Shown: positions 5,877 to 54,946 of the stretch, in pieces
Numbering within the stretch: position 1 is the first letter of the stretch
Layout: the number at the start of each line of letters is the position of its first letter
Source: Collinsella aerofaciens ATCC 25986
GTDB taxonomy: Bacteria; Actinomycetota; Coriobacteriia; Coriobacteriales; Coriobacteriaceae
Direction: 5' to 3'
DNA: 64,000 nt
Assembly: GCF_010509075.1 (NCBI RefSeq)
Contig: NZ_CP048433.1
Coordinates: 558,001 to 622,000 of the forward strand
Translations under genes and position numbers: made by a program
Notes under the pieces: model-generated
Database searches by the model: none
What the model saw: only the letters and a program-made list of their open reading frames with translations
Told to the model about the DNA's origin: nothing

Positions 5877-8303
5877 TTACGCGTGCCAGATCTCGTCGCG
5901 GTACTCGCGAATGGTGCGGTCGCTCGAGAACCAGCCGCTCGAGGCGGTGTTGAGCAGGGCCTTGCGGTTCCAGGTCTCCTGGTCGCCGTAGCTGCCGGTG
6001 AGCTTTTCCCATGCATCCACGTAGCTGCGGAAGTCGGCCATGACCAGGTCAGGGTCGTTGTTGTTCATGAGCTCGTTGTAGATGCTCTCGAAGTTGCCCG
6101 AAAGACCCGCAAAGGTGTTGTCCTTGAGCTCGTCCATCACTCGGCCCAGACGCTCGCGGTCGCCGTTGAGGGTATCCCACGCAAAGTAGCTGTTGGATGC
6201 CCAGAGCTGCTCGACCTCGGGAGCGGTTAGGCCAAAGATGGCCTCGTTCTCGCGGCCGGCCAGGTCGGCAATCTCGATGTTGGCGCCGTCGAGGGTGCCC
6301 AGCGTAATGGCGCCGTTCATCATGAGCTTCATGTTGGACGTGCCCGAGGCCTCCTTACCGGCCGTGGAGATCTGCTCCGAGATCTCGGCGGCAGGGTAGA
6401 TGAGCTGGGCGTTGCTCACGCGGAAGTTGGGGATAAAGCAGACCTTCATGACCTCGTTGACGCGCGGGTCGTTGTTGATGACGTCGGCAACGGAGTTAAT
6501 GAGGCGGATGGTCTCCTTGGCAAAGGTGTAGCTCGAGGCGGCCTTGCCGCTAAAGATGAACGTCGTCGGCGTCACGTGGAAGTTGGGATCGGCGATGCGA
6601 CGGTTGTAGATGTCCATCACCTTCATGATGTTCATGAGCTGGCGCTTGTAGGCGTGGAAGCGCTTCACCTGGACATCGAAGACGGTGTTGGGGTCGATGA
6701 CCAGACCGGTCTCGGCCTTAACGTAGGCGGCCAGGCGCTCCTTGTTGGCGCGCTTGGAGGCACCCACGGCCTTCAGGAACTCGGTGTCGTTCTGGAACTC
6801 TTTGAGCTTTTCCAGCTCAAAGGCGTCCTTCAGCCAGCCATCGCCAATGGCCTCGGTCACGAGCTTGGCATAGGTGGGGTTGGCCTCGGCAAAGAAGCGA
6901 CGGTGCGAGATGCCGTTGGTCTTGTTGTTGAACTTCTCGGGCGTCAGGGCATAGAAGTCCTTGAGCACGATGTTCTTGATGATGTCGGAGTGGATCTTGG
7001 CCACGCCGTTGACGCTATGGCTGCAGATCACAGACAGGTTGGCCATGCGAATCTCGCCGTCCCACAGAATGGCGGTCTGGCGCAGACGCTCCTGCCAGCC
7101 CTCCTGCGTGGTGTCGAACGACTCGTGCCAACGACGGCTGATCTCGTCGATGATCTGGTACACGCGGGGGAGGAGCTTGGAGAACGTGCCGATGGGCCAC
7201 TTCTCCAGAGCCTCGGGCAGGATGGTGTGGTTGGTGTAGCTCACGACCTGCGTCACGATGTTCCAGGCGTCGTCCCACTCGAGCTTCTTCTCGTCGATGA
7301 GGATACGCATGAGCTCGGGGCCGCACATGGCGGGGTGGGTGTCATTGGTATGGATGGCCACAAACTGTGGCAGCAGCTCCCAGTTTGCGCCGTGCTCCTT
7401 CTCAAAGGTGTCGAGCAGGCTGTAGATACCAGCCGAGACAAACAGGTACTCCTGCTTCAGGCGCAGCAGACGGCCGTGCTCGCCGGCATCATTGGGGTAG
7501 AGGATGGCGCTGATGGCCTCGGCCTCGGCGCGCTCAGCATCGGCCAGGGCATAGTCGCCGCGGTTGAAGGCCTCCAGATCGAAGTGCTCCTCGACCGGCT
7601 CGGCGGCCCAGACGCGCAGCTTGTTGACGGTCTCGCCGGCATAGCCCACCACGGGGATGTCGTAGGGGACGGCCAGGATATCCTGCGTGTCCACCGTGCG
7701 ATAGAACGTGCGGCCGTTCTCCTCAAAGCCCTCGACGTGGCCACCAAACTTAATGGTCACGGCCTTGTCCTGACGACGGACCTCCCAGGGATAGCCGTGG
7801 GTGAGCCACTCGTCGGTGGCCTCGACCTGGCTGCCGTTAACGATTTCCTGCTTAAACAGGCCGTAGCGGTAGCGCATGCCGTTGCCGTAACCGGCAATGC
7901 CCTCGGCTGCCATGGAATCCAGGAAGCACGCGGCCAGACGGCCCAGGCCACCGTTGCCCAGTGCCGGATCGGGCTCCTGGTTCTCGATGACGGAAAGGTC
8001 GAAGCCCATGTCGTCGAGCGCCTCCGCGACCATGTCGCGCACGCCAAAGTTGAGCAGGTAGTTGTCGAGCAGGCGGCCGATCAAAAACTCGATCGAGAAG
8101 TAGTACACGCGCTTCTTGCCCTCGGCGGTGGCGCGGGCGTCGCTCTTGGTGGCAACGGTGCGTGCCTTCTCGGCCACGAGCTTGGCCAGGGCGTTAAAAC
8201 GGTCGAGGTCGCTGGCGGCCTCGACGCTCTTGCCGCTGATGCTCATGACGGCATCGCGATAGAGCTCGGTAAACTCCTGCTTGTTGTCGAAGATCTTATT
8301 CAT
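5877..8303 (-). CDS. glgP: Glycogen/maltodextrin phosphorylase
   Basis: Releases glucose-1-phosphate from glycogen with inorganic phosphate, using pyridoxal phosphate. 808 residues, typical of GT35. The PLP-lysine region is visible as EASGTSNMKLMMNGAITLG near residue 660, and EPDPALGNGGLGRLAACF near residue 110 is another family signature. The gene lies between glgB and glgC, so synthesis and breakdown enzymes are co-transcribed and flux is probably set allosterically rather than by separate promoters. Confidence 0.96.
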   Translation of the reverse strand: MNKIFDNKQEFTELYRDAVMSISGKSVEAASDLDRFNALAKLVAEKARTVATKSDARATAEGKKRVYYFSIEFLIGRLLDNYLLNFGVRDMVAEALDDMGFDLSVIENQEPDPALGNGGLGRLAACFLDSMAAEGIAGYGNGMRYRYGLFKQEIVNGSQVEATDEWLTHGYPWEVRRQDKAVTIKFGGHVEGFEENGRTFYRTVDTQDILAVPYDIPVVGYAGETVNKLRVWAAEPVEEHFDLEAFNRGDYALADAERAEAEAISAILYPNDAGEHGRLLRLKQEYLFVSAGIYSLLDTFEKEHGANWELLPQFVAIHTNDTHPAMCGPELMRILIDEKKLEWDDAWNIVTQVVSYTNHTILPEALEKWPIGTFSKLLPRVYQIIDEISRRWHESFDTTQEGWQERLRQTAILWDGEIRMANLSVICSHSVNGVAKIHSDIIKNIVLKDFYALTPEKFNNKTNGISHRRFFAEANPTYAKLVTEAIGDGWLKDAFELEKLKEFQNDTEFLKAVGASKRANKERLAAYVKAETGLVIDPNTVFDVQVKRFHAYKRQLMNIMKVMDIYNRRIADPNFHVTPTTFIFSGKAASSYTFAKETIRLINSVADVINNDPRVNEVMKVCFIPNFRVSNAQLIYPAAEISEQISTAGKEASGTSNMKLMMNGAITLGTLDGANIEIADLAGRENEAIFGLTAPEVEQLWASNSYFAWDTLNGDRERLGRVMDELKDNTFAGLSGNFESIYNELMNNNDPDLVMADFRSYVDAWEKLTGSYGDQETWNRKALLNTASSGWFSSDRTIREYRDEIWHA

Positions 8304-48838: not shown

Positions 48839-48915
<77 letters not shown>

Positions 48916-49439: not shown

Positions 49440-50393
49440 TTAGAAGGAGAAAGCGGGGAACACATAGGGGACGCCCGTCGCGTTGCTGTAGTCCCAGTCG
49501 CCGTTGCCAACGACAAAGCGGAAGCCCGTGGAGGCGCTCGGAGTCACAGAGCGAGTCCAGTGATGCCACCTCGACGAAGCTCCGGAGTAGTTCGACGTCG
49601 TCACGCCCTTGGACTTGTAGAACTCGTACTGGACGCCGTCGGACTGCATGTCCCCGTATACCTCGGTCGTAGAGAGCAGGAAGATCTTGTCAGTCGTGAC
49701 TGAGGGGGTGCCTGCGGTGCCGCCGCCCTTATTGTCGGTCATCTTCTTGACAGACTTCACCTTGGACTGGATCTCGGCCGGCAGGAGCGACCAGAGGTCA
49801 CCGCTGTTGAGACGGCTGCGAAGCTCCGACTTGTCCCAGCCACCGACGTTAGTGCCCGTGGCGTTCATTCTCTGGGCGTCCAAGACAGTGTTGGTCGCCT
49901 CAAACGTCAGGCCCGCCTTGCCGGAACCGTCGGCCAGATCATCGTGGTTGATGCCGACGATGCGGTATTCGAGCGTCTTGCCGTTCGTCAGTTTCATCGA
50001 GAACTTCGTCCCCGCGTCCATAGCGGCCTTGGCCTTGGCGTAGGCGGGAGATGCCTCGCCCTTCGCGGCGATATCCTCGGCGACGGCCTTCTGCTCATCG
50101 AGCGTCCAGTCCTTGGCGTCCTTGGCGATTGCCGCCTGGACGGTCGCCGAATCGGCTCCCGTGGAGCCGCCGCCTGGCGCACCGCCGCCCTCGGTGCCGG
50201 CGGTCGTCCCATTGTTCACCGTATTGCCGACCAGGTTGAACTGGTTTCGGATGGCCCCGGCCACGCCGGGTCCCGCGAACACGATCACCAGACCGATGAT
50301 TGCGATGATCAGGACGTACTCGATGATAGATTGACCTCGGAGGCGGGTATTCCTAGGAGATACCCCCCCCCCGAAGGTCAATTGCCGCTGCAT
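49440..50393 (-). CDS. Flp-type pilin with DUF6273-like C-terminal domain
   Basis: 317 residues from ATG 50393. Leader MQRQLTFGGGVSPRNTRLRG is followed by Q1-S-I-I-E5-Y and a hydrophobic helix (VLIIAIIGLVIVFAGPGVAG), the prepilin-peptidase site and Glu5 of type IV/Flp pilins. A Gly/Ser linker follows, then a large domain with RSRLNSGDLWSLLPAEIQSK, KIFLLSTTEVYG and HWTRSVTPS, as in DUF6273. Ten G residues (C10 at 50363-50372) encode the GGG of the leader; one base more or less shuts the frame. A second ATG (50397) has better spacing to GGGAG (8 vs 12 nt) but is in frame only with 9 or 12 G. The frame extends upstream to 50732 without a credible start. Confidence 0.85.
   Translation of the reverse strand: MQRQLTFGGGVSPRNTRLRGQSIIEYVLIIAIIGLVIVFAGPGVAGAIRNQFNLVGNTVNNGTTAGTEGGGAPGGGSTGADSATVQAAIAKDAKDWTLDEQKAVAEDIAAKGEASPAYAKAKAAMDAGTKFSMKLTNGKTLEYRIVGINHDDLADGSGKAGLTFEATNTVLDAQRMNATGTNVGGWDKSELRSRLNSGDLWSLLPAEIQSKVKSVKKMTDNKGGGTAGTPSVTTDKIFLLSTTEVYGDMQSDGVQYEFYKSKGVTTSNYSGASSRWHHWTRSVTPSASTGFRFVVGNGDWDYSNATGVPYVFPAFSF
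50363..50372 (-). repeat. Poly-G tract (G10) in the pilin 1 leader
   Basis: Ten consecutive G on the coding strand, 7 codons after ATG 50393. At this length the pilin frame is open from ATG 50393. Confidence 0.9.
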
Positions 50394-50472
50394 GCATATG
50401 CGACACTCCCTTCGCTCAGGGTTTGTAGATACATCGCCGAGCGTAGGGCTATTCCAAAATCCTGCTCCGGTC

Positions 50473-50487
50473 TTGCCGCAGCGGCAA
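50473..50487. promoter_or_regulatory. Palindrome TTGCCGCAGCGGCAA upstream of pilin 1
   Basis: 15-bp perfect palindrome with a one-base centre, 80-94 nt upstream of the pilin 1 ATG. TGCCGCTGCGGCA occurs at nearly the same distance upstream of pilin 2. Confidence 0.5.
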
Positions 50488-50747
50488 CGATGACGGTAGG
50501 GGAGAAAACCGAGTGTCTTGAATGCAGCCAATTGCCCTCTCGAAGCCCTCGCACGGCTGCACCTCGTCGATATAGAGGCGATTGTGGGTACCCCCCCTTG
50601 TACAGCCCAATGTTTGACAATCTTGCTCGAGTTCCCTGCGCCGGGTCTGGCAGCTGAACCAAAGGCATAAAACGCAAAGTATAATAACGCTCGTATGAGA
50701 AACGACGCGATTCGAACTGTCTGTTCGCCCACGAGAAAGAATCGTCC

Positions 50748-52940
50748 ATGAGCATATTCGACAAAGGCTTCGACCCGCTGCAGGAGATTCAGAGGGCCAC
50801 TAAGACTGCCGGCGAGGCGGCGACCAGGATTGCCGAGGGGGCATCTGGGATGGCAGTAGCGGCAAGCGCTGCGGTTGCAGACGCGGCGACAATGGCTGGC
50901 GCGGCGGTCGCAGGGGCGACGGGCGGCGCGAAGGCCGCCCTCGACGAAATAGAGGCCGAAAGACTTGATGCGGAGAAGGCGGAGTACGCGCCCAAGGTAC
51001 AGGAAGCCCTGAGGGCGATTGAGGCGACCCGCGCACAGGAGCTACTCGGCTCATTCCAGGAGTCTCCACTTCCGTTGACGGAAGCCAATGCAGCCAAGGT
51101 GAAGTCAGCCTTCCCGATACCGAGGGAACAGACCGTCGTCTGGGCCGACGCCGAGTTCGACCTCAGGCCCAGCGGCATCGCCATGACCGAGAAGGGCGTC
51201 TACATCAAGGCGGACGCCGACGCGTTCGCCGTCCCGGGGAAGGAAAAGAGGCGGTCTCGCCTCTTCTACTTCGAGTGGGCGCACTTCGAACCAGGCTCCT
51301 TCGCCTCCGACGGTGAAAGCAACCTCGCGCTCACCGTCGATGAGGCGTGCCGGGGCCAGTTCATATCCCGCTGCCAGGCGCTCCGCGGCCTTGAGGATGA
51401 CCGCGCCGCCGGCATCGACAGCGAGCTTGCCACGGTGGGCGATACGGCGGTCAAAGCCGCGGCAGTCGCGGCGGCGGCGACCATCAACAGCAACGGGGAG
51501 GTCTTCGTCGAGCAACGGGCCGCGGTCAACAACCCCGCGGGCCACGGAGAGCTTGCCGAGGAGGCGAACAGCATCATCGACAGGCTCCAGGGCCACCAGG
51601 CCGAGATTCTGGGGAGGGACAACGCGAAGAACGGCGCCGACCGAAGCGTCGACGGCGTTCTGATCCAGACCAAGTACTACAAGACGGCGCGAGGGTCCCT
51701 CGAAGCGTGCTTCGACCCGAGCAGCCATCAGTATCGCTACCTCACAGAAGACCGCACGCCGATGCAGCTCGAAGTCCCGAAAGACCAGTACCAGCAGGTG
51801 CTCCGCGGTTTCGAGAAGAAGATCAGCCAAGGCAAGGTCCCCGGCGTCAGCGACCCCAAGGACGCCGAGAAGATCGTCCGCAAAGGCAAGCTCACATACG
51901 ACCAGGCGGTGAACCTCACCAAACCGGGAACGATTGAATCGGTGACCTATGACGCCGCGACCGGCGCGGTCACATGCTCCTGCGCGTTCGGCCTGTCGTT
52001 TCTGGCGACGACGTTCATGGCGTACAGGGAGACCAAGGACATCACCGGTGCCGTCCAGGCTGGCATCGCCGCCGGCGTCCAGGTGTTCGGCCTGTCCTTC
52101 GCCCAGCATATGGTCGTCTCGCAGCTCTCCAGAGCGGGGCTTTCCAACGCCTTGATGGCGCCCAGCCAGGCGTTGGTCGGCAAGCTCGGATTCAAGGCGT
52201 CCGCCACAATCGTCAACGGCCTGCGCGCCCTTACGGGCAAGACCGCCATCAGCGGGGCGGCCGCCTCCAAGCAGCTTGCGAAGATGCTAAGGGGCAACGC
52301 CGTCTCGGCGGCGGTGACTCTCGCCGTGTTCTCAGTCCCCGAGACCTACAGGCTCTTCCAGGGCAAGGCAAGTGGCGCCCAGTACGCCCAGAACATGGCA
52401 TGCCTCGCCACCTCGATCGCCGGGGGAATCGCCGGCGCCGCCGCAGCAGGTGTCGCGGCGGCGAAGGTCGGCGCCGTCGCCGGCACGGCGGTGTCGCCCG
52501 GCGTGGGGACCATCGTCGGCCTCGCGGGCGGCATGGTTGGCGGAACGGTCGGCACGGCGGCCGCGGGCGTAGTCGGCGGGATACTGTTCGAGGGCGACGG
52601 CGCGTCTTTCGGGCGGTACTTCAACGCCATGGTGTCGTGCATGGCGGTCGAGTACCTGCTCGACGGACGCGAGATGGACGAGCTGCTTGCCGCCCTAGAC
52701 GGCGTAAAGCCGGAAGAGTTCAAGGCGCTGATGGAGGAGACGCTCTCATCGCAGGACCAAGAGGCGAAGGTCCGGGCGTTCCTTGTCCCGTTGTTCGATG
52801 AGATCGTGTCGCGCAGAGAGCGCTTCGCGCTTCCCACCAGCAGTCAGATATCCGACGCCCTTGTCGAGTTCGAGCAGACGATGTGCGCGGACAATCACTC
52901 GGCCTCCACCGCCATGCGCACGACCTCTTCCATCGGGTAG
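50748..52940 (+). CDS. Large protein with glycine-rich membrane hairpins
   Basis: 730 residues; I do not know the family name. Residues 1-100 are Ala-rich helix; ~120-220 hold a folded domain (VVWADAEFDLRPSGIAMTE, KRRSRLFYFEWAHF) of PH-like look; ~305-400 include TKYYKTARGSLEACFDPSS. From ~415 several hydrophobic stretches appear (AFGLSFLATTFMA, GIAAGVQVFGLSF) and ~555-640 are Gly/Ala hairpins (AGGIAGAAAAGVAAAKVG, GIVGLAGGMVGGTVG-like) resembling glycine-zipper or pore-forming segments. The gene is divergent from pilin 1, with the palindrome between them. Its 3' end overlaps a convergent antitoxin gene by 46 nt. An effector or stress-related membrane protein is possible. Confidence 0.7.
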   Translation: MSIFDKGFDPLQEIQRATKTAGEAATRIAEGASGMAVAASAAVADAATMAGAAVAGATGGAKAALDEIEAERLDAEKAEYAPKVQEALRAIEATRAQELLGSFQESPLPLTEANAAKVKSAFPIPREQTVVWADAEFDLRPSGIAMTEKGVYIKADADAFAVPGKEKRRSRLFYFEWAHFEPGSFASDGESNLALTVDEACRGQFISRCQALRGLEDDRAAGIDSELATVGDTAVKAAAVAAAATINSNGEVFVEQRAAVNNPAGHGELAEEANSIIDRLQGHQAEILGRDNAKNGADRSVDGVLIQTKYYKTARGSLEACFDPSSHQYRYLTEDRTPMQLEVPKDQYQQVLRGFEKKISQGKVPGVSDPKDAEKIVRKGKLTYDQAVNLTKPGTIESVTYDAATGAVTCSCAFGLSFLATTFMAYRETKDITGAVQAGIAAGVQVFGLSFAQHMVVSQLSRAGLSNALMAPSQALVGKLGFKASATIVNGLRALTGKTAISGAAASKQLAKMLRGNAVSAAVTLAVFSVPETYRLFQGKASGAQYAQNMACLATSIAGGIAGAAAAGVAAAKVGAVAGTAVSPGVGTIVGLAGGMVGGTVGTAAAGVVGGILFEGDGASFGRYFNAMVSCMAVEYLLDGREMDELLAALDGVKPEEFKALMEETLSSQDQEAKVRAFLVPLFDEIVSRRERFALPTSSQISDALVEFEQTMCADNHSASTAMRTTSSIG

Positions 52941-53122
52941 CGGGTGCCGCCATCCCCGTCCAAGGCCTCGTTGTAGGCCTCGATGTCCGCCATGTCCTCA
53001 GCCTTCTCGAGCGCGGCCCTTCTCACGAACTCGGAAAAGGACATGCCCGCAGCGTCCGCACGGCCCTGAATCAAAGCCCTTTCGCCCTCATCGAACTTGA
53101 CCGCAATCTCGTACATCGCCAT
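52895..53122 (-). CDS. Ribbon-helix-helix antitoxin-like protein (RelB/DUF6290 type)
   Basis: 75 residues from ATG 53122 (GGGA 6 nt upstream). MYEIAVKFDEGERALIQ forms the strand and first helix, GMSFSEFVRRAALEKAED the second helix; the C-terminus is acidic (toxin-binding). No toxin gene follows: the downstream DNA is the antisense end of the 730-residue protein. It is therefore an orphan or acts as a regulator. An upstream in-frame ATG at 53236 has no ribosome site. Confidence 0.75.
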   Translation of the reverse strand: MAMYEIAVKFDEGERALIQGRADAAGMSFSEFVRRAALEKAEDMADIEAYNEALDGDGGTRYPMEEVVRMAVEAE

Positions 53123-53335
53123 GATTGTTCCCGTCAACGCCGTCATCTGATTGAGCCAATTATCCACCCACCGCGTACGCCCTGAATTCCAAATGCCAAG
53201 CAGGGGAGAAAACCGAGAACCCGAAGGCATTATCAAATCGGGCGATTACGGGAGCAAACAGGATGACGTGCTCGGAGTCCGTCCCGTTATCTGGGTCAAA
53301 TTGAATTAGACACCGGCTCTCAAAACGGCTGAAAC

Positions 53336-53371
53336 GAGAAGCCGTCCTCGATGCGCCGGGGTCGGCTTCTC
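53336..53371 (-). terminator. Probable terminator of pilin gene 2
   Basis: GAGAAGCCG (53336-53344) pairs with CGGCTTCTC (53363-53371); on the minus strand GTTTC follows. Weak U-run. Confidence 0.5.
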
Positions 53372-53585
53372 GCACTGAGTTCGATACCGGTTAACGCCAC
53401 GCTTTGGGAGAGATCACACCGGGCGCCCCGGAGTTGAACGCATAATTTGCAGCGCTCGGATCGATAATCCACTCCGAGCAGTCGAGGCTCAGGTTGTTGC
53501 AGTCTGAGAACATCCAATAGCATCCATATGGCTTGAAATCAGCCGTGGAGATAGGACCGAATTCGATAGATTCCAGATTATGGCA

Positions 53586-53613
53586 ATATGCGAATGCCGA
53601 TATGCGAATGCCG
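53586..53613 (-). repeat. 14-bp tandem duplication in pilin 2
   Basis: ATATGCGAATGCCG occurs twice in direct tandem. 14 is not a multiple of 3, so two copies break the frame and one restores it. Confidence 0.92.
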
Positions 53614-54234
53614 ATACAGCGGTCACGCAATGAGATAAATCCCATGTCGATAGATCCAGGTCTCTCACATTCCCGCAGTTATAGAAAATATGCTCGATAC
53701 CGGAGACCGAACTGGTATCGAGCTTCGACACATCAAACGAAATGCAATTCTTGAATTGATGGAACCAGAAGGAGATGCTGATCGGCTTAATGCCGCCGTC
53801 AACGACGGACACGCTCCGACAATCACTTGAACGGCTATACCACGGAGCGTTTGTCGCATCGTTTGAGTAGTTGTAGTCTATCGGTGTATAGCGATCCGTC
53901 TCGAATCCCGTATACAGCGCAGTCACCTTGCGGTAGTTGAACATGTCTCCTACCTTGGGCACCCCGCGCCTCTTGTAGAACATGAGGCTGTGGTCGTCCT
54001 CGGAGTAGACCGCGAACGCCGTGCCGTTCTCAGGGTCGGGGATGTCCTCCGGCTCGTAGAAGTTCTCGCCCGTCGTGCCAGACCCGATGGCGCCCGCCAC
54101 CGTGTTGAACTGGTTTCTGATGGCAGACGAGACCCACGGCCCCGCGATCAAGATAACCAAGACTATAATCGCGATGATCAGGACGTACTCTACTGTCGAC
54201 TGCCCCTTCGGACGGCGGGTAAATCTCGGAGATA

Positions 54235-54245
54235 CCCCCCCCCCC
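54235..54245 (-). repeat. Poly-G tract (G11) in the pilin 2 leader
   Basis: Eleven consecutive G on the coding strand, 8 codons after the ATG. G10 or G13 would open the pilin frame. Confidence 0.9.
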
Positions 54246-54341
54246 GAAAGGAATTTCCGCTGCGTTCATGTGCGGCTCCTCTCGGATTGGATTGGCTGAC
54301 GCCGTAGAGGATAGACATGACCTCGCCAGCTAACCAGACAA

Positions 54342-54354
54342 TGCCGCTGCGGCA
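54342..54354. promoter_or_regulatory. Palindrome TGCCGCTGCGGCA upstream of pilin 2
   Basis: 13-bp palindrome 73-85 nt upstream of the pilin 2 ATG, matching the one upstream of pilin 1. Inference: common regulator. Confidence 0.5.
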
Positions 54355-54434
54355 ATCACACTAAGAGGGCAAGGCGTTCGGAGTGACGTCCCGTTTCAAA
54401 ACGTATGCGTTTCACCATGAGAGAGGGATCTGTC

Positions 54435-54946
54435 ATGAGCTGGAAACCGAGAAAATGCGTTATCGCCTTACTGACTTTGGCGACTCTGACGTGTTTCGCC
54501 GCCTTAATCGCCGTCAATATCAAACCGCAACACGATGCTTATCCCTCATCTTTGTCCATTAAAATGGGCCAAGATTTCAGCCTCGGCCGAAACGTCAATT
54601 ATTTTGACAAGCTAAAACCTAATGAGGAAAACATCTTGATGTTCTGGGCATCGTGGTGTTCGCACTGTGAATCTCTCATAGAGGATATGCAACAACTTGA
54701 TAATTTCGCAGCCTTAAGGAAGAACCTTTTCACTGTTTCCGAGGACGCACAATTAAAGAAGCCTCGGTCCATGAAGGAGACTTTCCCATATACATAGATT
54801 AAGATAAGACCGTGTATGACCAATATGAACTTGAGCATCTTCCGTCCGTATTCATACTGGATGATCAAGGAAACATCATCGGCTTATCCGAAGGAGAGGA
54901 AGAACCTCTTGCCTTATTAAAGAAATACGCCGAATACAACGGATAG
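54435..54946 (+). pseudogene. TlpA-like membrane-anchored thioredoxin, broken
   Basis: ATG 54435 (AGAGGGA upstream) starts an N-terminal anchor (VIALLTLATLTCFAALIAV) and a thioredoxin-like domain with FWASWCSHCESL (CXXC) up to TFPYT and stop at 54797. The second half, YDQYELEHLPSVFILDDQG with the cis-Pro region, continues in another frame to 54946, after a further TAA. An indel plus a nonsense change near 54787-54806 are needed to explain it. Such proteins handle disulfides outside the membrane. Just downstream is a secreted peptide gene with four cysteines. Confidence 0.7.

Follow-up and report, generated by a model that had tools for sequence, protein, structure and literature searches.

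Putative phase-variable Flp-like pilin genes with G tracts in their leaders in Collinsella aerofaciens

The 64,000-nt stretch of the genome of Collinsella aerofaciens ATCC 25986 analyzed here (contig NZ_CP048433.1, positions 558,001–622,000; called the window below, with coordinates given within it unless another contig is named) carries on its minus strand two genes, pilin 1 and pilin 2, whose products start with a short leader followed by an N terminus resembling that of Flp pilins, and both genes have a long run of G residues within the leader. We consider it likely that these genes and their relatives in other strains are contingency loci encoding phase-variable, adhesin-like pilins of the Tad/Flp kind, with the leader G run switched by slippage. 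Collinsella is a common actinobacterium of the human gut, and phase variation by simple repeats has been described chiefly in Gram-negative pathogens.

The two pilin genes of the window

The two genes are 3.9 kb apart, their leader regions are 77% alike over 61 nt, and the features of both are collected in Table 1. With its G10 tract, pilin 1 is open from the ATG at 50393 and reads MQRQLTFGGGVSPRNTRLR, followed by GQSIIEY, the cleavage site in front of Q being presumed from the general Flp motif. The leader of pilin 2, with its G11 tract, is shut. Both of these assignments had been made in the initial annotation of the sequence and are borne out by translation, as is the DUF6273-like domain that it placed on pilin 1 (E 9.4e-16, above the cut-off). 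The BspA-like domain that it placed on pilin 2 is better described as DUF285, which matches all four full-length relatives of pilin 2 (best E 2.2e-18), whereas LRR_5 matches one of them. In pilin 2 itself the Flp-like N terminus was read by eye, and the matches of its DUF285-type domain and of a PARCEL-repeat surface-protein model are below the cut-off.

Apart from the G10 and G11 tracts of the two leaders, the window has no C or G run of nine residues or more. The whole genome (2.455 Mb) contains eight G runs of this length (12 overlapping pattern matches), and the number expected within two 60-nt leaders, if eight runs were placed randomly, is 0.0004.

Pilin 2 is doubly shut, by the G11 tract and by the frameshift that results from a 14-bp duplication, and may be a dead copy. 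Its relative in strain G032 has a single copy of the 14-bp unit and an open frame of 266 residues. Intact mature regions of the pilin 2 type are present among the relatives, with the leaders of all four of them shut. No sigma-70 promoter or terminator was found in the only stretch scanned for them, 50300–50800 at pilin 1.

Table 1. Positions of the pilin genes, their leader elements, and neighboring features in the window
Feature	Position	Strand	Remarks
tRNA-Pro	48839-48915	+	borders the pilin island
Pilin 1, coding sequence from the second ATG	49440-50393	-	open with G10; short leader, Flp-like N terminus, DUF6273 domain
Prepilin leader of pilin 1	50334-50397	-	ends at the predicted cleavage site G^QSIIEY
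Stop codon (TAG) just past the tract	50353-50355	-	in the ATG1 frame at G10
G10 tract, pilin 1 leader	50363-50372	-	C10 on the plus strand
ATGCATG, overlapping starts	50391-50397	-	4 nt apart, two frames; ATG1 50397-50395, ATG2 50393-50391
Shine-Dalgarno-like GGAG	50406-50409	-	8 nt to ATG1, 12 nt to ATG2
Palindrome TGCCGCTGCGGCA	50474-50486	-	begins 89 nt upstream of pilin 1 ATG1
730-residue protein between the pilins	50748-52940	+	no Pfam/NCBIfam match
DUF6290 / RelB-antitoxin-like protein between the pilins	52895-53236	-	
C-terminal remainder of pilin 2	53391-53645	-	other frame; LRR_5 E 0.016, below cut-off
Pilin 2 region, ending where the pilin frame is first stopped	53489-54269	-	leader, Flp-like N terminus, DUF285-type domain
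14-bp tandem duplication	53587-53614	-	shifts the pilin 2 frame inside the surface domain; single copy in G032
G11 tract, pilin 2 leader	54235-54245	-	C11 on the plus strand
Sole ATG of the pilin 2 leader (ATGAACG)	54267-54269	-	second ATG, present in four relatives, absent
Palindrome TGCCGCAGCGGCA	54342-54354	-	begins 85 nt upstream of pilin 2 ATG

Relatives in other genomes

A search with the N terminus of pilin 1 among 43 genomes of the genus gave 26 places in 12 genomes, including that of the present strain. The leader is carried by 24 of these places, the other two being plain Flp genes of strain G002, so that the conservation of the leader in orthologues, on which the initial annotation had made its proposal depend, is indeed observed. 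When 395 genomes of the order were searched with a profile, the same 12 genomes were returned, together with one genome of another family (G083:C1:321491-324093), in which twelve short, tandem frames resemble Flp pilins, with 11 of the 12 giving the same E-value. Fifteen loci came from a scan in which each GTDB species was represented by one genome; of these, 14 were already in the genus set and one, L052, came from a further strain. Nine of the 15 named related loci belong to Collinsella aerofaciens and six to other or uncultured Collinsella. Two further leader-bearing copies are located on the IMG/VR contig L160, and three other pattern matches on viral contigs looked chance-like by eye.

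The set compared below consists of 28 leader-bearing copies (24 from the 12 genomes, two from L052, and two from L160), chosen by a pattern in which the start, with few changes allowed in its motif, precedes the Flp motif. The two plain Flp genes of G002, which have no G run, and a stretch of L052 that starts in an assembly gap were left out. The set comprises 23 copies of the pilin 1 type and five of the pilin 2 type, and four of the 28 come from metagenome-assembled genomes (MAGs).

Leader anatomy and reading phases

All 28 copies start with GGAG, a spacer of 5–8 nt, and ATG1, followed by the tract, which is located 25 nt from the start of ATG1 in the 23 copies of the pilin 1 type and 24 nt from it in the five of the pilin 2 type. 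In 26 of the 28 copies the start has the form ATGNATG, with two ATG codons placed 4 nt apart in two frames, so that the distance from GGAG is 4 nt longer for ATG2 than for ATG1. Nine copies are open from ATG1, 13 from ATG2, and six, namely that of G011 and the five of the pilin 2 type, are shut.

Among the copies of the pilin 1 type, uninterrupted G9 tracts are open from ATG1 in five of six cases, the sixth (G031), which differs further down the leader, being open from ATG2; ATG2 also provides the open frame in all eight copies with G10, whereas the single G8 tract is shut. Altogether, 22 of these 23 copies, or 20 of the 21 distinct leaders, are open, compared with the two thirds expected to be open at random phase with two starts (P 0.002, relatedness ignored). 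A mature frame of at least 293 residues follows in 14 of the 22 open copies, and two others, which meet an assembly gap or a contig end, cannot be judged. A stop codon is found 7 nt past the tract in all 23 copies of the pilin 1 type (TAG in 17, TGA in four, TAA in two) and in none of the five copies of the pilin 2 type, a feature that is suggestive only.

Six distinct tracts are interrupted or shortened (GGGGGGTGGG, GGGGGGCGGG, GGGAAGGGG, and three with G6), and all six are in an open frame, as would be expected if a tract unable to slip survived only when open. In the copy with GGGAAGGGG, ATG2, which is not needed for its open frame, has been lost. One of the six copies runs off its contig.

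The length of the uninterrupted tracts is not fixed across strains, with 8, 9, 10, and 11 residues being found. The pilin 1 alleles of strains G010 and G005 are identical over 120 nt, covering the upstream region and the leader together, save for a G10 tract in the former and a G9 tract in the latter, and are 99.5% identical over the next 600 nt; they are open from ATG2 and from ATG1, respectively. This single difference points to slippage. Downstream of the cleavage site, the first 600 nt of pilin 2 of the present strain (G11) and of its relative in G032 (G9) are 99.7% identical, with the upstream region and the leader only 85% alike.

Taken with the conservation of the leader, these differences in length support the phase variation proposed in the initial annotation. 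The part of that proposal that concerned on/off switching stands as far as the dependence of the frame on tract length is concerned, and is probably wrong with respect to a simple two-state switch, as two overlapping ATG codons provide two open phases.

A possible mechanism of switching

Slippage of DNA polymerase at the leader G run would alter which frame enters the pilin. In genes of the pilin 1 type, a G9 tract would be open from ATG1, with the shorter Shine-Dalgarno spacing, and a G10 tract from ATG2, with the longer one, whereas a G8 tract and, by arithmetic, a G11 tract would be closed. Because the two overlapping ATG codons leave two of the three phases open, three states appear likelier than an on/off switch, and the outcome would be a strong, a weaker, and an off state, if output levels are judged from the spacing. 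With the tract placed ahead of the predicted cleavage site, every open length would yield the same mature pilin, in which an N-terminal Flp helix would be joined to a DUF6273 or a DUF285 domain displayed on a Tad pilus. What the sequences themselves show is the tract, its leader in the relatives, the differences in length between near-identical assembled alleles, the frames, the position of the palindrome, and the Tad-type genes of the genome; the reversibility of the switch, the levels of expression, cleavage, incorporation into the pilus, and adhesion are inferred. If the mechanism is correct, strains scored as positive for the pilin gene may not produce the pilin, and, as open copies can be predicted from the sequence alone, existing metagenome reads can test it directly.

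Pilin class and the Tad machinery

Pilins of the Flp/Tad class are recognized by a short leader, a G residue before a segment with E at position +5 and Y, and a hydrophobic helix that follows. The G, Q, E, and Y residues of the motif are invariant in 14 of 14 aligned sequences, and one copy of L160 has C in place of Y. The Flp_Fap family is matched by ten of 12 proteins of the pilin 1 type at E ≤ 0.01 (best 1.9e-6), and a weak match to solved Flp pilins was obtained as well (8u1k, E 0.0042). No solved chain matches the DUF6273 part by sequence at E ≤ 1, the only chains found being Flp pilins and, weakly, a colicin. No LPXTG motif was seen by eye in the pilin sequences inspected, the leader of which is of the prepilin type, and no search for sortases was made.

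A T2SSE-type (TadA-like) ATPase is encoded in all 43 genomes of the genus and an A24 prepilin peptidase in 41 of them. The genome of the present strain includes a Tad-like operon with an Flp-like gene, read by eye apart from its ATPase, which is closest to the TadA model, below the cut-off. This TadA-like gene is located 1.45 Mb from the pilins on the contig, and the A24 prepilin peptidase is encoded elsewhere. A closer arrangement is found in G002, where a T2SSE ATPase, a prepilin peptidase, two plain Flp genes, and a TadE-like gene whose match narrowly misses the cut-off are all encoded no further than 7 kb from a G-run pilin.

A palindrome upstream of the pilins

A palindrome, TGCCGCNGCGGCA, begins 85–90 nt before ATG1 and is exact in 22 of the 28 copies, with at most two mismatches in 27 of them. 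The palindrome itself is not rare: 42 of the 43 genomes of the genus have 0–5 copies of it, with its reversed control often equal or more numerous, and its constant position ahead of the pilins carries the weight. It looks like a shared operator, or it may be an RNA element. The genome of the present strain has three sites, two at the pilins and one within an open frame of 870 residues.

In G002, 22 palindromes are present compared with four for the control, and 20 of the 22 are located on contigs C2, C16, and C18. An open frame of at least 60 residues starts 40–140 nt away from 19 of the 20 sites examined, by a loose criterion applied without a control. These sites could possibly form the regulon of a mobile element.

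Alternative explanations

Several observations have to be set against slippage-driven switching of Tad/Flp-kind pilins. The match of pilin 1 to Flp_Fap (E 6.3e-4, 19.9 bits) is below the Pfam cut-off of 32.2, and because of this the pilins are termed here Flp-like, even though a cut-off is no biological feature. The leader-bearing family is present in only 12 of the 43 genomes of the genus. All five copies of the pilin 2 type are shut, and pilin 2 of the present strain has one ATG only. Six of the 22 open copies of the pilin 1 type are broken downstream (72–173 residues). Of the six distinct tracts that are interrupted or shortened, three are located in genes broken in this way, which makes the argument that selection has kept such tracts open a weaker one. 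The conservation of the first 13 bases of the start in the 23 copies of the pilin 1 type (mean frequency of the major base 0.99, compared with 0.78 for the next 12) is in part a product of the pattern used, in which only three of the 13 bases are free, although 24 of the 26 places identified by protein search fit that pattern. The stop codon past the tract rests on few haplotypes. The palindrome is not in excess in the genome of the present strain, where its reversed control also has three sites. All tract lengths are those of the assemblies, in which a one-base error is possible in any single tract, and assembled homopolymer lengths can indeed be wrong, as noted in the available part of PMC9187656.

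The same anatomy would suit slippage in transcription, or ribosomal frameshifting, at the G run, which would give each cell a constant mixture of frames and a fixed output, with no heritable switch. Homopolymer runs can slip in transcription too. Literature on this subject is cited in the part of PMC9187656 that was available. Against this explanation, near-identical alleles differ in tract length in the assembled DNA, and all six distinct interrupted or shortened tracts are in an open frame; we regard it as improbable.

An equally small probability is assigned to the view that these are decaying genes, in which the tract is a mutational scar and the differences in its length reflect neutral drift or assembly error. 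The further frameshifts of pilin 2 and of the six broken copies mentioned above, the location of half of the distinct interrupted or shortened tracts in such genes, and an excess of G10 matches in G030, G031, G032, and G006 that points to an artefact in some assemblies are all in its favor, but the spacing of the leader is constant in 28 copies, 22 of 23 copies of the pilin 1 type are open, 14 of these with a mature frame of at least 293 residues, and only four of the 28 copies come from MAGs. Finally, the G run might be a cis element, such as a G-quadruplex or an RNA structure controlling initiation, whose length would matter and whose frame would not; G runs can form structures (PMC9187656, as far as its accessible text goes), but interrupted or 6-nt runs are found in copies that keep the frame open, and this explanation appears very improbable.

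The pilin island and its possible mobility

The pilin island adjoins the tRNA-Pro gene and a coaBC-like gene, named by eye. The tRNA-Pro segment is found on the corresponding stretches of ten of the 12 other strains with leader-bearing copies, the strains in which it was not found being G011 and G032, with short contigs, and also in G023, one of two strains with pilin remnants. Nearly whole copies of the 730-residue protein encoded between the pilins are located near pilin genes in G020 and G032. Next to pilin 2, a broken thioredoxin-like frame was seen by eye at 54400–54900, and this stretch is also present in seven other strains.

In strain G002, pilin copies are located beside conjugation genes. 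On one contig, a pilin copy is accompanied by a topoisomerase, a TraG-type coupling protein, and a tyrosine integrase, the last of these beside a partial copy of the tRNA-Pro segment; a second contig carries a complete tRNA-Pro and a pilin copy. A third encodes a DnaB helicase and a relaxase together with three G-run pilins or their relatives, the run of one of them being interrupted, and has a Tad operon in which a T2SSE ATPase, a TadE-like gene, a prepilin peptidase, and two plain Flp genes are found. The partial and complete copies of the tRNA-Pro segment in this strain (C16 45371-45498 and C18 4441-4693) resemble the two ends of an integrated element. A plasmid origin was considered and rejected, as no near match of pilin 1 was found among 72,556 plasmid records; the Tad operon of G002 had two distant matches among the same records, to CpaF-family genes.

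The pilins have the appearance of mobile-element cargo, and the island of the present strain that of a remnant. A broader proposal, which we put forward tentatively and hold to be somewhat less probable than its opposite, is that of a mobile family of Collinsella Tad pilins with a three-state switch, an operator palindrome, and varied binding domains, spread by conjugation at tRNA-Pro. If it is true, one strain can carry several independently switching pilus tips.

Variation at the C terminus of the pilins is seen in G020 (L066), in which the two copies at 8060 and 11485 are identical over 689 nt and then differ at 66 positions within 214 nt, which means that the DUF6273 domain is exchanged or hypervariable at its end. 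Two sources of such variation were considered and rejected. For a diversity-generating retroelement in the present genome, no template repeat was found, and both RVT_1 places, one of them below the cut-off, are more than 200 kb away; the 261-nt 3' end of pilin 1 matched, beyond itself, only 18 nt (E 0.046) and about 50 nt at 72% (E 0.56) of the genome. By eye, the differences between the copies of G020 include synonymous ones and are not confined to one base, which also speaks against a retroelement. In G005, about 23 kb separate an RVT_1 gene from the pilins of that contig. For silent C-terminal cassettes the evidence is too little, with one partial 3' piece found downstream of a pilin of G002. 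Remnants of the 3' end without the N terminus occur in G023 and G025.

Other G runs

The remaining long G runs of the genome are located as follows. A G10 run (G000:C1:904804-904813, L007) is found immediately 5' of the GTG start of a BrxA gene, belonging to the BREX phage defence (Pfam E 2e-30), which makes control of a defence system by slippage possible there. A bacterial sugar transferase gene (Pfam E 6.8e-59) has a G9 run close to its 5' end (G000:C1:401490-401498, L001), and TTG is the sole in-frame start upstream of the run. Three further G9 runs, at 1608268 (L010), 2183952 (L011), and 1290810 (L009), are found in, or just after, N termini that by eye resemble signal peptides, in large open frames without a Pfam match; together with the pilins, they hint that slippage loci form a larger group here. 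No clear gene is located near the eighth run (2208643, L012). In other genomes, overlapping G10 matches number in the hundreds in three MAGs (G030, G031, and G032) and 78 in G006, which is probably an artefact of sequencing or assembly and calls for caution in surveys of poly-G tracts.

Comparison with known systems

Among the matches listed in a literature search, with subscription journals mostly outside its coverage, no publication title concerned phase variation or Tad pili in Collinsella. In Neisseria, pilC1 and pilC2, genes for the adhesin of type IV pili, have a poly-G run in the part encoding the signal peptide; PilC is not a pilin, however, and its leader is a Sec signal peptide. We know of no second start in pilC.

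The sortase-dependent pili of Bifidobacterium breve provide the gut actinobacterial precedent that was found. Two of their genes, bbr_0113 and bbr_1889, contain an intragenic G tract and undergo phase variation by slippage; the tract of bbr_0113 is annotated with 11 residues, a culture contained 37% G11 and 59% G12, and slippage that fuses the frames was enriched in mice (PMC9187656, excerpts). The two systems have in common a gut actinobacterium as the host, pilus genes, and an intragenic G tract. They differ in that the pilins of B. breve are sortase-dependent and, as far as those excerpts describe them, without overlapping starts or a prepilin cleavage site, whereas those of Collinsella are Tad/Flp-like.

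Putative start codons in two frames before a repeat are reported in the accessible part of a study of lic2A of Haemophilus influenzae (PMC3116884), and starts in two frames likewise precede the tract in 26 of the 28 Collinsella copies, pilin 2 of the present strain not being among them. However, lic2A, as presented there, is a lipooligosaccharide gene with CAAT repeats, whereas the Collinsella genes encode pilins and have a G run, with the two ATG codons overlapping within 7 nt. The Kil system of Myxococcus, in which Tad pili bear exchangeable tips made of complexes of three minor pilins (PMC12075869, partial text), resembles the arrangement proposed here in that minor Tad pilins would show variable domains at the tip. 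It is unlike it in that its tips are complexes, for which that text describes no phase variation, whereas in Collinsella single Flp-like proteins carry DUF6273 or DUF285.

The principle of slippage is known; what appears to be new is a Tad-type pilin gene that unites a prepilin leader with a G run and overlapping starts. With its two starts, this arrangement would offer a small and testable way of grading the switch.

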